This document shows, piece by piece, positions 2,705 through 45,326 of a stretch of 64,000 nucleotides of DNA (positions within the stretch are counted from its first letter, which is position 1; each line of letters opens with the position of its first letter). The DNA is from Candidatus Aenigmatarchaeota archaeon (lineage in GTDB: Archaea; Aenigmatarchaeota; Aenigmatarchaeia; Aenigmatarchaeales; JACQIB01). Location of the stretch: assembly GCA_016198755.1 (NCBI GenBank), contig JACQIB010000001.1:129178-193177 (forward strand), in the 5' to 3' direction. The notes beneath the pieces were generated by a model, which saw only the letters and a list, made by a program, of their open reading frames with translations, searched no databases and was not told the DNA's origin. Both the position numbers and the translations under genes were made by a program.

Positions 2705-3958
2705 ATGTCTTACAAAGTAAAAGATATTGGACTGGCAGAGCAGGGTAAATTAAAAATAGAATGGGCAGAGCAGCAGATGCCAGTTCTAATGAGCATAAGG
2801 AAGGACTTTGAAAAAGCACAGCCCTTCAAGGGAGTAACAGTTGCAGCCTGTTTGCATGTTACTAAAGAGACAGCAGTTCTTGTGCGTACTCTAAAAGCAG
2901 GCGGTGCTATAGTTGGGTTGTCAGCTTCCAATCCTCTATCCACACAGGATGATGTTGCAGCTGCTTTAGCTTCAGAGGGGATAACTGTTTTTGCATGGAA
3001 AGGGCAGAACAATGATGAGTATTATTGGGGACTTAACCAGCTTCTGGAATTAAAGCCTAACATAACTTTAGATGATGGCGCAGATGTTATTTCCACTATC
3101 CACTCTAAAAGAACAGATTTGCTGAAGAATGTTTTCGCTGGACAGGAAGAAACAACTACTGGAGTAATAAGGCTGAAAGCTATGGCTGCTGACGGAGCCT
3201 TAAAGTATCCTATAATAGCTGTTAATGATACCCCAACAAAGCACATGTTCGACAACTATTACGGTACAGGCCAATCCACAATAGATGGTATACTTAGGGC
3301 AACAAACATAATGCTTGCTGGAAAGACAGTTGTTGTATGCGGGTATGGCTACTGCAGTGCTGGTATTGCACTGCGCTCAGATGGTATGGGAGCAAATGTT
3401 GTAATAACAGAAGTTGATCCATTAAAAGCACTGAAAGCTGCAATGGACGGTTACAGAGTTATGCCTTTGAAAGAGGCTTCAAAAATAGGCGATATTTTCA
3501 TAACAGCCACAGGTGACAAGAATATTCTGCGCGCAGAACATTTCCAGCTAATGAAAAGCGGGGCAATTTTAGCAAACTCAGGGCACTTTAATGTGGAAAT
3601 AAGCATTCCAGATCTGGAATCCCTTTCAAAAGAAAGGAAAAAAATAAATGAAAATACTGAAGAATTTACTCTGAAAACAGGAAACAAACTTTACTTTTTA
3701 GCTGAAGGTAGATTGGTAAATTTAGCAGCAGCAGAAGGCCACCCTTCAGCGGTTATGGATATGAGCTTTGCAGACCAGGCTTTAGTTTGTGAGTGGCTTG
3801 TTAAAAACTATAAAACCCTTACTCCTGTTGTACATGATGTTCCAAAAGAGATTGACGAGAAAGTAGCTAGGCTAAAACTAAAGAGCATGGGCGTGGAAAT
3901 AGATTCTTTAACAGATGAACAGAAACATTATTTAGGAAGCTGGCAGGAAGGGACTTAA
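2705..3958 (+). CDS. ahcY: adenosylhomocysteinase
   Basis: DIGLAEQGKLKIEWAEQQMPVL...DDGADVIS...GKTVVVCGYGYCSAGIALRSDGMGANVVITEVDP...NSGHFNVEI. Confidence 0.96.
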   Translation: MSYKVKDIGLAEQGKLKIEWAEQQMPVLMSIRKDFEKAQPFKGVTVAACLHVTKETAVLVRTLKAGGAIVGLSASNPLSTQDDVAAALASEGITVFAWKGQNNDEYYWGLNQLLELKPNITLDDGADVISTIHSKRTDLLKNVFAGQEETTTGVIRLKAMAADGALKYPIIAVNDTPTKHMFDNYYGTGQSTIDGILRATNIMLAGKTVVVCGYGYCSAGIALRSDGMGANVVITEVDPLKALKAAMDGYRVMPLKEASKIGDIFITATGDKNILRAEHFQLMKSGAILANSGHFNVEISIPDLESLSKERKKINENTEEFTLKTGNKLYFLAEGRLVNLAAAEGHPSAVMDMSFADQALVCEWLVKNYKTLTPVVHDVPKEIDEKVARLKLKSMGVEIDSLTDEQKHYLGSWQEGT

Positions 3959-4023
3959 ACGGAACCCCCCCAAACTATTAATCACTTTATAGTAGTGATA
4001 GCTTTATATATCGCGAAAACCTA

Positions 4024-5280
4024 TTGTTTGTTATGGCAGAACAGGAAACTGGATGGTTCGACCTGTCCATAGAGCAGAGGTTTTCTACCCTTATTTCTGC
4101 ATTAGGAAATGATCTAAGAAATGTTATGGTAGCACATGTTCTGCCCAGACAGGCATTCAAAGATAGGAGACAAATAGCTGCAGATTTTTCGAGCTTCGTA
4201 GACGCATCAGACAAAAGGCTGAAAATGCCAATTCCAACTTCTATAGAATCCCACCTTAACAATGTTTTGGTTCCATTATGGGCAGAGGAAAGTCCTGATG
4301 GAGGCAGCTGGAGACTTACACAAGCAGGTTACAGGATAGCAGCACCAGCCGCTGCGCATGCAATAGCTACATCTGTAGAGCTAGGCACAATGAACTCTAT
4401 TTTAGGCTTTACAAAAAAGGGCGGTTTTACAACATCCCCATACAAAAGGGCAATAATATTGGAGAATCTATACGAAACAACAGGAGGTGATGGAAAGCAT
4501 ATTTCTATAAGCGAAAGCGATTTGCAGCGCAGAATAGGATTTAGAAATTCTTCTCTATCCAAGCACCTTCCAGCCCTAAAGGATGCTGGAATGGTAAAGT
4601 ACGATTCTGTTTCAGCTGAGGATATGGGAGCGCAACTATACAAGTGGAAAGAGGGCAGACCAGAAGATGTGCCACCGCTGCCAAAATTTGCAATAACCTT
4701 GGATGTGGCCAGAGCTCTCAAAAACTCTAAGGATCCGATGGACTATAAATCCATTGCCTCTATGTTAGGAATACCTCCAACAAGAGTTTCAACTGTACTG
4801 AATTATCTTTCAGAGAATGGTTATGTAGAAAGTGTAAGCGGTTTTGTAAGGGGAAAGAAAATGTCAGTGGTTAAAATTTCTGACAATGGAGTAGCTTTGA
4901 TAGATAGGTTTATAGAACCTTTGAGAGCTACTTCTGTCACCAGACATCCTTCAAAAGAACTTAGAGATTCATCAGACATTTATGGAGGTCGCAGGACACT
5001 TGCTGTCGAGCATAACACAGCAGTTATGGTAGCTTATCAGAGCGAGCTAACTAGAGGAGAGACAAACAGGCATTCACAGGTTATTGGTATGCTCGGGGAA
5101 AAGCCTATGAGAATAGTTGATATAGAAGAGGTTATTGGTGTTCCTCCAGCCAGATATTTGAGGGACTTAGTTGCTGGTGGCTATGTTCAAAAGAGGAGAG
5201 GTTGCCCATCAGACCCTGGAAAAGGACATGGAGTTTGGTACAGCCGCACATCAAGGCCATTTTCCAGCCCAGCACTTTAA
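4024..5280 (+). CDS. hypothetical protein with winged-helix-like segments
   Basis: 418 aa; several HTH-like stretches (e.g. DYKSIASMLGIPPTRVSTVLNYLSENGYVES). Confidence 0.6.
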   Translation: MFVMAEQETGWFDLSIEQRFSTLISALGNDLRNVMVAHVLPRQAFKDRRQIAADFSSFVDASDKRLKMPIPTSIESHLNNVLVPLWAEESPDGGSWRLTQAGYRIAAPAAAHAIATSVELGTMNSILGFTKKGGFTTSPYKRAIILENLYETTGGDGKHISISESDLQRRIGFRNSSLSKHLPALKDAGMVKYDSVSAEDMGAQLYKWKEGRPEDVPPLPKFAITLDVARALKNSKDPMDYKSIASMLGIPPTRVSTVLNYLSENGYVESVSGFVRGKKMSVVKISDNGVALIDRFIEPLRATSVTRHPSKELRDSSDIYGGRRTLAVEHNTAVMVAYQSELTRGETNRHSQVIGMLGEKPMRIVDIEEVIGVPPARYLRDLVAGGYVQKRRGCPSDPGKGHGVWYSRTSRPFSSPAL

Positions 5281-7188: not shown

Positions 7189-7218
7189 GGTTCCTATAAC
7201 CTTTGGCAGCATAAAAAT

Positions 7219-7463
7219 TGGTGGGCCCGGAGGGAGTTTCGAACCTCAAGGGAGAGGTTGAAAGGAGATACGTAGTTTCTCCTTCTTCGAACCCTCGACT
7301 CTCGGGTCTGAAGAGTGCTGCTCTCGCAGTATTTCTTCCTGTCATCGCCTGAGCTATGAAGACCCAGGCTGCACATGCTTTTATCTGGTGCGGGCATATT
7401 CTGCAACACTTCTGCGTGCCGCAGATAAAAGCCCGATACTCTACCAGACTGAGTTACGGGCCC
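7219..7463 (-). tRNA. tRNA-Lys(TTT) with two introns, encoded CCA
   Basis: GGGCCCG...CGGGCCC-A-CCA acceptor; anticodon arm TCGGG CTTTTA/A CCCGA; T-arm GAGGG TTCGAAT CCCTC after removing ~118 nt (7308-7425, position 37/38) and ~50 nt (7236-7285, T-loop ~59/60). Confidence 0.88.
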
Positions 7464-7876: not shown

Positions 7877-7934
7877 CCAGAAAACTATTGAACCCTATGC
7901 TTTAATAGCTTTACTGGGACGGCATGAGAAAAAA

Positions 7935-7949
7935 TAAAAAGATGGTCAC
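7935..7949 (-). repeat. 15-bp direct repeat of the 5S rRNA 3' end plus T-run (distal copy)
   Basis: TAAAAAGATGGTCAC identical to 9031-9045 at the 3' end of the 5S gene; weaker similarity continues to about 7960. Confidence 0.8.
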
Positions 7950-7960
7950 GGTGTTTTCAA

Positions 7961-8446
7961 TCAAATTAATTTGAACCTTTTCCTTAAGGTTTCTATATCT
8001 TCATTTCCTAAGTTTTTGATTATAAGTTTTAATTGTATAACAAAATTCTCAGCTTTCGATACCATATCGTGCGCGGAGTCTTTTATAACACCGACATTCT
8101 TTTTGGAAGAAACATAATACTGTTTATCTATTCTTTCATCTTTTGCAAATGATATTGTTTTGAACAGGTCCGGTCTATTGAACAATTTTTGCAATAGTAA
8201 AATAGATCCTGAATGATTTTCGCATTTTATTCCTATTTTGAACAGTAGTGCTGTTAAAGAGTTGTACATAGCATAATACGACATTGAAATGGAGTTTTCA
8301 TAGAGGTCATTATTTAGCAAAAGCGTGGCTGATTTTATGCAAGCTTCAGATTTTTCCAAATAAGATGAACATATTTCTTCTGAGGGGTTTACAAGTTCCA
8401 GTGCTTTGCTGGCTTTAAGCTTGCTGAAAAAATCTTGTTTTTCCAT
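7961..8446 (-). CDS. HEPN-domain protein (HEPN/MNT toxin-antitoxin pair 1)
   Basis: Small helical protein MEKQDFFSKLKASKALELV...SKSACIK-like helices, SISMSYYAMYNSLTALLFKIGIKCENHSGSILLLQKLF; overlaps the MNT gene. Start at Met6 of the ORF. Confidence 0.82.
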   Translation of the reverse strand: MEKQDFFSKLKASKALELVNPSEEICSSYLEKSEACIKSATLLLNNDLYENSISMSYYAMYNSLTALLFKIGIKCENHSGSILLLQKLFNRPDLFKTISFAKDERIDKQYYVSSKKNVGVIKDSAHDMVSKAENFVIQLKLIIKNLGNEDIETLRKRFKLI

Positions 8447-8954
8447 AAAAATCCTCCACACCTCTTAATATTATATGGTTTTTTATTATCTCTTTTATAA
8501 GATTTGAATCCAAATCAAAGTCGCCAATTTTCACCTTTATTTTTGAATTTGTAAACTCTATAGAATCCTTTACTTTTTTATTTTTCGTTTCTACGTATAT
8601 ATCTATATCACTTTCATTCTTTGCTGCAAATTTTGCATAGCTGCCAAATAAGATTATAAGATTCTCTTGGCATTCCTTCAGTAGGCCCTCTATTATAATA
8701 CCCAATTCAGGATACAACTTTACTAATTTTATTAAATTGTATCTTTCTGCATTAAAGACATACGTTTGGGCTTCTAAATTCTTCTTTAGATAAAAAACCT
8801 TGTTTTTACCTTCTTTCTTATAGTCTAAAACACAGCACTTTACTAAATTGTTTAATTTCCTCTCTACCGTTGAGTGAGATACCTTCAATTCCTTTGCAAT
8901 GCCCCTCAAGTGCATTCTCCCGCCTATAAGGCGGAGTATTATTTCGTATTCCAT
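8415..8954 (-). CDS. HTH + MNT-type nucleotidyltransferase (HEPN/MNT pair 1)
   Basis: N-terminal HTH (HLRGIAKELKVSHSTVERKLNNLV) and IILFGSYAKFAAKNESDIDIYV nucleotidyltransferase motif. Start placed at Met11 (8954) because a symmetric operator and TATA box lie just upstream; ORF track extends to 8984. Confidence 0.85.
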   Translation of the reverse strand: MEYEIILRLIGGRMHLRGIAKELKVSHSTVERKLNNLVKCCVLDYKKEGKNKVFYLKKNLEAQTYVFNAERYNLIKLVKLYPELGIIIEGLLKECQENLIILFGSYAKFAAKNESDIDIYVETKNKKVKDSIEFTNSKIKVKIGDFDLDSNLIKEIIKNHIILRGVEDFYGKTRFFQQA

Positions 8955-8996
8955 ATTGTACCATTTTTGATACATATGTATCATTATTGGTACAAT
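8955..8996. promoter_or_regulatory. concentric double palindrome, putative operator of HEPN/MNT pair 1
   Basis: ATTGTACCA-tttt-TGATACATATGTATCA-ttat-TGGTACAAT, both palindromes centred at 8975.5; TATA-like TTTATATA (minus strand) just upstream. Confidence 0.75.
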
Positions 8997-9038: not shown

Positions 9039-9155
9039 TGGTCACAGCGTCTTTCGCTTCCCACGTTTTCCGCAGTACAACGAAAATCCCTGGCGCGATT
9101 CACTACCGTGTTCGGAATGGGAACGGGTCTTGCCGCGCCGGTTTGACCGTGACCA
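9039..9155 (-). rRNA. rrf: 5S ribosomal RNA
   Basis: Minus strand TGGTCACGGTC...AAGACCCGTTCCCATTCCGAACACGGTAGT...GTACTGCGG...GCTGTGACCA; ends pair. Confidence 0.95.
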
Positions 9156-44203: not shown

Positions 44204-44647
44204 ATGGAAACCCACATGGTTGTATCAGCCTATATTGTCTATAATAACAAAGTTCTTTTAATCCACCACAAGAAGCTGGATATGTGGCTCCCTGTTGGTG
44301 GGCATATAGAAGAGAATGAAGTTCCTGATGATGCTATTCTAAGGGAAATAAAAGAGGAGGTTGGTATAGAGGCAGAAATACTAAATATTTCAGACCTCCC
44401 AATTGTTGGCTCAGTCAAAAGGAACCTCCACATACCTTTCTATGTTAATGTACATAATGTAGGTGACCATAATCATTGTTGTTTATATTATTTGTGCAAA
44501 CCCCTAAACCCTGAAAACCTGAAAATAAGCGAAGAGCTCAAAGGCTTTCGCTGGCTCTCCCGCGAGGAGCTTTCTGGTCCTGATGTATCGCCAGAAATTA
44601 AGAACAGTGCCAAAAAAGCTTTAGATATATTCTCAAAATTTGTCTAA
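44204..44647 (+). CDS. Nudix hydrolase
   Basis: GGHIEENEVPDDAILREIKEEVGIEAEI Nudix box. Confidence 0.92.
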   Translation: METHMVVSAYIVYNNKVLLIHHKKLDMWLPVGGHIEENEVPDDAILREIKEEVGIEAEILNISDLPIVGSVKRNLHIPFYVNVHNVGDHNHCCLYYLCKPLNPENLKISEELKGFRWLSREELSGPDVSPEIKNSAKKALDIFSKFV

Positions 44648-44667
44648 TGGTGGGTCACTGTGATTTT
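44648..44667 (-). repeat. tRNA-Pro 3'-end remnant (distal to RelBE)
   Basis: TGGTGGGtca-CTGTGATTT versus TGGTGGGcccgCTGTGATTT at 45181-45200. Confidence 0.65.
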
Positions 44668-44705
44668 ACACAAACTTTATAAGTTGTGTGTTACATAGAT
44701 ATATT

Positions 44706-44915
44706 ATGCATTTGAAACCAGAAAAGAACATATACAACAGACTTAGCCAATTACAAAAAGACATAAGGCATGTTAAGACTGATGTGGATATGATAAAGGC
44801 AGTAATAATTGAAGATACTCTACTTACAAAGGAGGAAAAGGCTCATATAGAAAAGAGCATGGAAAACCTAAAGAAAGGGAAAACGGCAGAGTTTATACCA
44901 TTAAATGAAATCTGA
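44706..44915 (+). CDS. RelB-like antitoxin
   Basis: Small charged helical protein 5 nt upstream of a RelE-like toxin; ATG at 44706 preferred over GTG at 44688 (TATA-like CTTTATAAG ~25 nt upstream). Confidence 0.72.
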   Translation: MHLKPEKNIYNRLSQLQKDIRHVKTDVDMIKAVIIEDTLLTKEEKAHIEKSMENLKKGKTAEFIPLNEI

Positions 44916-44920
44916 TACAA

Positions 44921-45175
44921 ATGTTTAACATACTCCTCCACAAGGATGTTGTAAAATTTCTAAAATTCCTTGATAAAGAGTTGCAAGATAGAATAAAGAA
45001 AAAGCTTAGGGTGCTTGAAACAGATCCTTATCCAGCAGGATGTATAAAGCTTGCAGGAACCAGGAATATGTTCAGGTTAAGGGTGGGTAATTACAGAGTT
45101 CTGTATTATGTTGATTACGACAGCTCTACGATAGTTATTGATAAGATAGATAAAAGGAGCAGTGTTTACAACTAA
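44921..45175 (+). CDS. RelE-family toxin (mRNA interferase-like)
   Basis: FNILLHKDVVKFLKFLDKELQDRIKKKLRVLETDPYPAGCIKLAGTRNMFRLRVGNYRVLYYVDYDSSTIVIDKIDKRSSVY. Confidence 0.92.
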   Translation: MFNILLHKDVVKFLKFLDKELQDRIKKKLRVLETDPYPAGCIKLAGTRNMFRLRVGNYRVLYYVDYDSSTIVIDKIDKRSSVYN

Positions 45176-45180
45176 ACTTA

Positions 45181-45326
45181 TGGTGGGCCCGCTGTGATTT
45201 GAATTCCTGGGCATCTTGCGCCGCACAGGTCGCGAGGTCCCGAACCTCGAATCCTACCATTCTAGCATGCGAAGTTGTGCTGGAATCCAGCGAAGCTTGC
45301 TTCGCACGAAGCTAGACTACGGGCCC
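45181..45326 (-). tRNA. tRNA-Pro(CGG) with D-loop and T-arm insertions/introns, encoded CCA
   Basis: GGGCCCG/CGGGCCC-A-CCA; anticodon arm CGAGG TTCGGGA CCTCG; T-arm CTGTG TTCAAAT CACAG after removing ~20 nt (45204-45223); D-loop ~50 nt insertion (45262-45311). Mature length 73. Confidence 0.82.

Follow-up and report, generated by a model that had tools for sequence, protein, structure and literature searches.

Toxin–antitoxin operons between gene ends and their copies in DPANN-type archaea: candidate cassettes without a recombinase of their own

In the archaeal DNA analysed here (the window, 64,000 nt), a RelBE-type toxin–antitoxin (TA) pair sits between a tRNA-Pro gene and a degenerate copy of that gene's 3′ end, and the host genome as a whole has at least six TA-type modules lying between copies of a host gene end. 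Based on this layout, we propose that gene ends serve as integration sites for TA modules, which would enter as minimal cassettes with the help of a recombinase supplied in trans, a reading to which we assign a probability of about 0.55. Its support is anatomical: the sequence shows gene-end duplications, an intact gene, a TA operon and its promoter alone inside, tandem arrays and one pair of occupied and empty sites. The TA status of the modules, including Fic and MNT/HEPN, is predicted from their families only.

A RelBE pair between tRNA-Pro and a copy of its 3′ end

The region comprises the following features.

44204–44647, plus strand: Nudix protein, the neighbour past the copy (ORF list, family match)
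44648–44666, minus strand: degenerate tRNA-Pro 3′-end copy (AAATCACAG-TGA-CCCACCA), attR-like (sequence, scan, shuffles)
44668–44692, plus strand: palindrome ACACAAACTTtATAAGTTGTGTGT with a TATA-like box (sequence)
44706–44915, plus strand: antitoxin ORF, RelB-like by position, alternative start GTG at 44688 (ORF list)
44921–45175, plus strand: RelE/ParE-family toxin, 84 aa (PF05016, E-value 1e-7, above cut-off)
45181–45326, minus strand: tRNA-Pro(CGG) with D-arm and T-arm inserts, CCA encoded (structure-based finder; ARAGORN on the spliced form)

On the genomic sequence, the tRNA-Pro gene is detected neither by ARAGORN nor by Rfam because of its inserts, two non-canonical introns placed one each in the D arm and the T arm (CTGTG^CGGCGCAAGATGCCCAGGAA^TTCAAATCACAG). 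After their removal, ARAGORN reports tRNA-Pro(CGG), with the acceptor GGGCCCG/CGGGCCC, the anticodon loop TTCGGGA and an encoded CCA. This gene is the predicted target, intact on its side of the pair and with an attL-like 3′ end. The sequence-only reading had located the tRNA-Pro end at 45181 on the minus strand and its copy at 44648 beyond RelBE, and both 20-mers were found as placed. Read on the plus strand, positions 45181–45200 are TGGTGGGCCCGCTGTGATTT and positions 44648–44666 are TGGTGGGTCACTGTGATTT; 16 of 20 positions are identical with one gap, on the same strand, and AAATCACAG..CCCACCAT.AG is common to both when the flanks are included. The copy lies on the side of the pair away from the tRNA, where it abuts the stop codon of the Nudix gene (44645–44647) and precedes the RelB ATG by about 40 nt; at the other border, 5 nt separate the RelE stop (45175) from the tRNA-Pro 3′ end. 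A direct repeat of the target's 3′ end is present at both borders, as in a gene-end-targeting integrative element. That the copy is short and degenerate counts against the cassette reading.

Between copy and tRNA, only the palindromic promoter, the antitoxin ORF and the RelE/ParE toxin are found. The palindrome is likely the promoter/operator of the pair. A RelE/ParE-fold toxin gene follows a small antitoxin gene, which is the arrangement of a type II RelBE system. The earlier identification as RelBE holds for the toxin through PF05016; the antitoxin, on the other hand, has no family match above the cut-off, and its label “RelB” reflects position and size only. Among the other 17 genomes of the order, none has a RelE relative at an E-value of 1e-5, which fits a recent acquisition, and a search of wider genome contigs gave no confirmed relative.

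Chance tests and scan of RNA genes

The last 25 nt of the tRNA-Pro gene plus 6 nt downstream served as query, and their alignment to the copy scores 15. This score was matched by none of 300 random 3-kb windows. When the 0.89-Mb genome was divided into 2,962 overlapping 630-nt windows (both strands), one only reached it, namely the cassette region, and 2,000 dinucleotide-preserving shuffles of that region gave a maximum of 13. The copy at 44648 is confirmed as more than chance, and it stands out from the background of tRNA-like 20-mers to which it might have belonged.

That further RNA genes might carry such remnants was borne out genome-wide. For the 5S rRNA gene and 37 tRNA genes (n = 38; an incomplete list, at least seven more intron-rich tRNA genes having surfaced later), the gene's own 3′ end was sought in the downstream 3 kb with RNA genes masked. 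A structure-based finder was used to locate the tRNA genes, since most of them carry introns. Copies beating all 300 random windows were obtained downstream of 3 of the 38 genes, tRNA-Pro, 5S and tRNA-Ser(TGA), and each encloses exactly one TA-type gene or operon (RelBE, MNT/HEPN and Fic, respectively); the upstream control with the same RNA genes gave 0 at p ≤ 0.05. The tRNA-Ser(TGA) gene on contig C3 is a newly found and unforeseen third case, in which one gene only, encoding a Fic protein of 314 aa, is enclosed between the tRNA and a 33/34-nt copy 1.03 kb downstream. The 5S case lies within the window.

7929–7958, minus strand: 5S 3′-end copy plus T-tract, distal to MNT/HEPN, reading AAAAAGATGGTCAC.G..T (repeat search and scan)
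7961–8461, minus strand: HEPN protein, ATG start probably at 8446 (PF05168)
8415–8984, minus strand: MNT nucleotidyltransferase with N-terminal HTH (PF18765, PF01909)
9039–9154, minus strand: 5S rRNA gene, target of the second cassette (Rfam)

The two window sites had been described as sharing one geometry. This is correct for the order of RNA gene, TA pair and distal copy but not for orientation: MNT/HEPN runs in the same direction as 5S, whereas RelBE, on the plus strand, is convergent with tRNA-Pro on the minus strand.

RNA genes could also have been partially duplicated in tandem, or be similar to other sequence by chance, with TA genes in between by coincidence. tRNA pseudo-fragments are common, and two Fic loci in other archaea (L089, L094) do lie between two complete tRNA genes. 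However, the window and shuffle tests reject chance, the copies are all downstream, on the same strand and enclose TA genes only, and protein-gene ends behave alike; we regard this explanation as very improbable.

Cassettes at protein-gene ends of the host

A scan of the host for direct repeats (spacing 0.3–2.6 kb, pairs wholly inside coding sequence excluded) returned 28 pairs, the strongest of which, with paralogous coding sequence and a 23S region set aside, enclose TA genes. A second RelBE pair lies behind the TBP gene (score 69), whose C-terminus RAVVKVDKRLKNLNKK is repeated past the pair and once more in between. HicAB is flanked by 66-nt repeats (score 36) whose sequence is that of the adjacent gene's 5′ end. 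Behind the TFS gene, MNT/HEPN is found (score 23), and the copy of the TFS end now codes for the HEPN C-terminus. The TBP and TFS ORFs are intact beside their cassettes. At C2:111985–112404 (HEPN) and C2:49360–49590 (RelE) of the host, the distal gene-end copy apparently became the C-terminal codons of the toxin.

Arrays and single cassettes in other archaea

Relatives of the Fic protein were gathered by organism name, and most of the comparison genomes are metagenome assemblies. In one of them, Woesearchaeota NC_groundwater_562 (locus L212), three modules follow one tRNA-Ser gene with 3′-end copies between them.

1396–1523: tRNA-Ser
1611–2264: MNT
2245–2799: HEPN
2864–2903: first tRNA-Ser 3′-end copy
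3001–3960: Fic
3971–3991: second tRNA-Ser 3′-end copy
4054–4527: antitoxin and RelE

Another Woesearchaeota genome from a different project (locus L213, genome G159) has tRNA-Ser, Fic, copy, RelBE, copy, and then a DUF4258 gene with a zinc-finger/AbrB-like partner. MNT/HEPN is absent there, so that the two loci differ by exactly one TA cassette at the tRNA side. The sequence TTTTATTCTTCCAAATG directly follows the tRNA-Ser gene in L213 and the copy in L212; L213 is consequently a natural empty site for the tRNA-proximal cassette. This comparison of occupied and empty site applies to the tRNA-Ser cassette of these two loci only. An array at a protein gene occurs in a Nanoarchaeota genome (L209).

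1405: end of the protein gene
1598–2808: AbiE pair
2875: first end copy
3001–3951: Fic
4043: second end copy

As in an integron array, a repeated site separates the cassettes of L212, L213 and L209; it is a gene end (tRNA-Ser 3′ end or protein-gene end), not attC. In a genome of another family of the class (G058), 1 tRNA gene out of 23 shows a comparable arrangement: a near-perfect 36-nt repeat (score 34) of the tRNA-Thr end encloses a nucleotidyltransferase-like gene and a 60-aa ORF, and an ORF just past the copy weakly matches an integrase N-terminal domain.

The TA pairs might instead be what remains of larger integrated viruses or plasmids after deletion of the other genes, the integrase included, with addiction keeping the TA genes. 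Proviruses and islands of 9–23 kb do leave such tRNA fragments in archaea (PMC9897764). The ORF beside the G058 copy, with its weak integrase-domain match, also points this way. Decay would, however, have had to trim at least six cassettes of one genome each to a single operon between repeats. Furthermore, the arrays hold TA modules only, each set off from the next by a gene-end copy, a structure that could not result from decay of one island, and L212 and L213 differ by just one such module at the tRNA side. This origin is accordingly improbable.

Single cases at protein-gene ends include Fic behind the end of the TrpRS gene (L210; alone only p = 0.08), Fic behind that of a KH-domain ATPase-like gene (L076) and RelBE behind another long ORF (L255); at L093, Fic lies within 98-nt repeats. 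Codon differences between the end copies are 5 synonymous and 2 non-synonymous in L209 and 4 synonymous and 2 non-synonymous in L076, which looks as though one of the ends had been evolving in another place as part of a coding sequence. Overall, clear flanking repeats were found at 9 of 39 sampled TA loci, some of them doubtful (L089 and L094, pairs of complete tRNA genes; L252, weak), and at 2 of 21 glycosyltransferase control loci, a difference that in this small sample is not significant by itself. That the share of TA loci with such repeats is no more than about a fifth counts against the cassette reading. L089 and L094 were rejected as 3′-end copies, the second tRNA being a complete isoacceptor gene; Fic lies between Ser/Ser and Leu/Leu genes there, and tandem tRNA genes may attract insertions through the same preference. 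Results for the HEPN loci of the class were mixed, with short near-exact repeats at L139, L143, L153 and L159 and long low-complexity matches elsewhere, and were left out of the case. At L215, Fic is located directly behind the TFS gene, and a search for a copy of the TFS end gave none that was convincing. In G038, a genome with 8 detectable tRNAs only, a tRNA gene (C1:683125–683232) has a 19-nt 3′-end copy 68 nt downstream and no gene between; it was not counted and is possibly an emptied site.

The suggestion of a shared mechanism inserting small cassettes at RNA 3′ ends is strengthened by Fic at the host tRNA-Ser and by the occurrence of the same TA types in arrays at one tRNA-Ser in other archaea. 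Ends of protein genes, among them TBP, TFS and TrpRS, are targets as well, which makes the restriction to RNA genes too narrow.

Search for a recombinase and proposed mechanism

No tyrosine recombinase, serine recombinase or Cas1 (PF00589, PF00239, PF01867) was matched in the host, and the same three families had no match in G159, the genome of the L213 array. A search of this genome for a tyrosine recombinase acting in trans had been suggested, and it gave no PF00589 match in the host; the lack of PF00589 in the host and in G159 extends to an IntI-type integrase. XerA-like proteins did turn up in the search that gave no PF00589 match for these two genomes, and are candidate tyrosine recombinases. 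No element-encoded integrase exists either: the cassette had been described as lacking a recombinase, and indeed only the TA operon lies between the repeats. A serine-recombinase origin was rejected, as PF00239 is absent from the genomes tested.

Terminal inverted repeats at the cassette ends are not above background except for Fic at tRNA-Ser, through the hairpin of its operator GTAGTCACC. Most archaeal relatives of this Fic protein (L209–L217), across lineages, have a TATA-like box and then GTAGTCACC ahead of the gene, probably an autoregulatory operator. Repeats of GTAGTCACC were rejected as recombination sites, being located in the promoter of these relatives, most of which have the motif.

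Casposons integrate at tRNA 3′ ends with a duplication of about 14–15 bp. In target and duplication, a transposon or casposon-type insertion would resemble the cassettes. Casposons, however, need Cas1 and terminal inverted repeats; Cas1 is absent from the genomes tested, terminal inverted repeats do not exceed background, and the repeats observed vary in length and are often longer. A casposon origin was rejected on these grounds, and insertion of this general type is the least probable of the explanations weighed.

The main rival is host recombination. Imported DNA consisting of a conserved gene end plus a TA module would recombine within the gene end by homologous or short-homology recombination (Campbell-type or homology-facilitated), requiring no dedicated recombinase, and survivors would be seen at gene ends since inserts inside essential genes are lethal. 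It is to be taken seriously because the targets are highly conserved genes (tRNA, 5S, TBP, TFS, TrpRS) and the repeat lengths vary widely, from about 19 to 107 nt. The missing recombinase genes in the host, the missing terminal inverted repeats and the one case at a gene 5′ end (HicAB) agree with it, as do the partly synonymous differences in L209 and L076, which are expected of another lineage's gene end. Nevertheless, 19–40 nt of homology is short for RadA-type recombination, the 3′-end preference and the tRNA-proximal order of the arrays resemble integrase behaviour, and the origin of a unit of gene end plus TA module would still have to be explained. Taken together, we consider host recombination unlikely, though a stronger contender than any other alternative.

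Integration in trans at gene ends, the preferred reading, would proceed as follows. The cassette of DPANN-type archaea, about 0.5–1.3 kb in size, would consist of a promoter and one TA operon and nothing else, and would carry a copy of the end, mostly the 3′ end, of a host gene for a tRNA, 5S rRNA or a protein. It may be excised, or carried, with one gene-end copy, presumably as a circular intermediate. Recombination inside the common gene-end sequence would then insert it behind the gene, leaving the gene intact and a second partial end on the far side, and successive insertions at one site would line cassettes up in tandem, each separated from the next by one gene-end copy. Once inserted, the TA pair would secure its own maintenance by addiction. 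The recombinase would most plausibly be a tyrosine integrase brought in by a virus or plasmid passing through; visiting elements are favoured as its source because the targets match those of archaeal tyrosine integrases (PMC6563490). A single mechanism may serve all cassettes. Against the model stands the negative recombinase search in the host and in G159; moreover, for one 0.89-Mb genome to show several target specificities, more than one integrase would have had to act in the course of time. More tentatively, and with slightly less than even odds in our estimate, the cassettes may represent a general TA mobility system of reduced archaeal genomes, in which recombinase-less cassettes use housekeeping gene ends as attachment sites, stack in integron-like fashion and are mobilised in trans.

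Relation to known systems

Among Thaumarchaeota elements with tyrosine integrases, 39 of 68 are in tRNA genes and 14 in protein-gene 3′ ends (PMC6563490), and tRNA fragments left by elements of 9–23 kb are well known (PMC9897764). Archaeal tRNA-targeting elements (proviruses, pNOB8- and SSV-type, PYG1) share with the cassettes the insertion at gene 3′ ends, with an intact gene on one side and a partial copy on the other (PMC6563490, PMC9897764), and the use of both tRNA and protein-gene 3′ ends as targets. They differ in size and content, measuring 9–23 kb (archaeal cases, PMC9897764) and encoding an integrase, whereas the cassettes have 0.5–1.3 kb, one TA operon and no recombinase. The short mobile element at tRNA-Thr of Caldiarchaeum (1.8 kb) likewise adjoins a tRNA gene and has a tRNA fragment on its far side, but it carries a DNA recombinase gene, and the fragment left behind is from the tRNA 5′ part (PMC3293823). 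Integrons, including the TA cassettes of chromosomal integrons, also hold small promoter-bearing TA cassettes in tandem with one recombination-site copy each, and in both systems the newest insertion apparently adjoins the anchor. In contrast to integrons, IntI and attC are absent here, a housekeeping gene's end takes the place of the recurring site, and many different genes have received single insertions.

RelBE, HicAB and MNT-HEPN, the gene families found here as cassettes, have been described as mobile two-gene modules of patchy distribution (Makarova et al., 2009; PMC2701414). The parts of that work drawn on here do not give the insertion mechanism and junctions, whereas junctions are read in the present data. 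According to a 2020 review, how TA systems move and integrate remains unelucidated (PMC7167474), and no description of recombinase-less TA cassettes at gene ends was found in the open-licence literature. With single-operon cassettes between gene-end copies, arrays and one occupied/empty pair, TA junctions are now readable and the question of integration becomes testable. In addition, unknown ORFs enclosed by a gene end and the partial repeat of that end can serve as a simple marker for new TA pairs, an example being the nucleotidyltransferase and 60-aa pair at tRNA-Thr.

Further tRNA genes and repeats of the host

About half of the host tRNA genes have a T-loop insert (TTCAA^..^AAATC), e.g., C1:55789–55948, C6:104057–104222 and C5:94398–94567. 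The inserts are drawn from few repeated sequence families common to many isoacceptors, and these introns look as if they had spread through the host genome. Outside the window (C5:31586–31784 and C5:32870–32931), the 23S rRNA gene contains two occurrences of a sequence of about 60 nt (CTTGCCAATAGAAATATTGGTTTGCAAAGCAAGCTT), a third lying 0.8 kb past the end of the gene; this sequence is perhaps related to rRNA introns. Within the window, just downstream of tRNA-Asp, positions 7217–7463 (minus strand) contain a further tRNA-like gene (GGGCCCGTAACTCAG...) which ARAGORN and Rfam did not detect; it has a T-loop insert and ends with CGGGCCCACCA.
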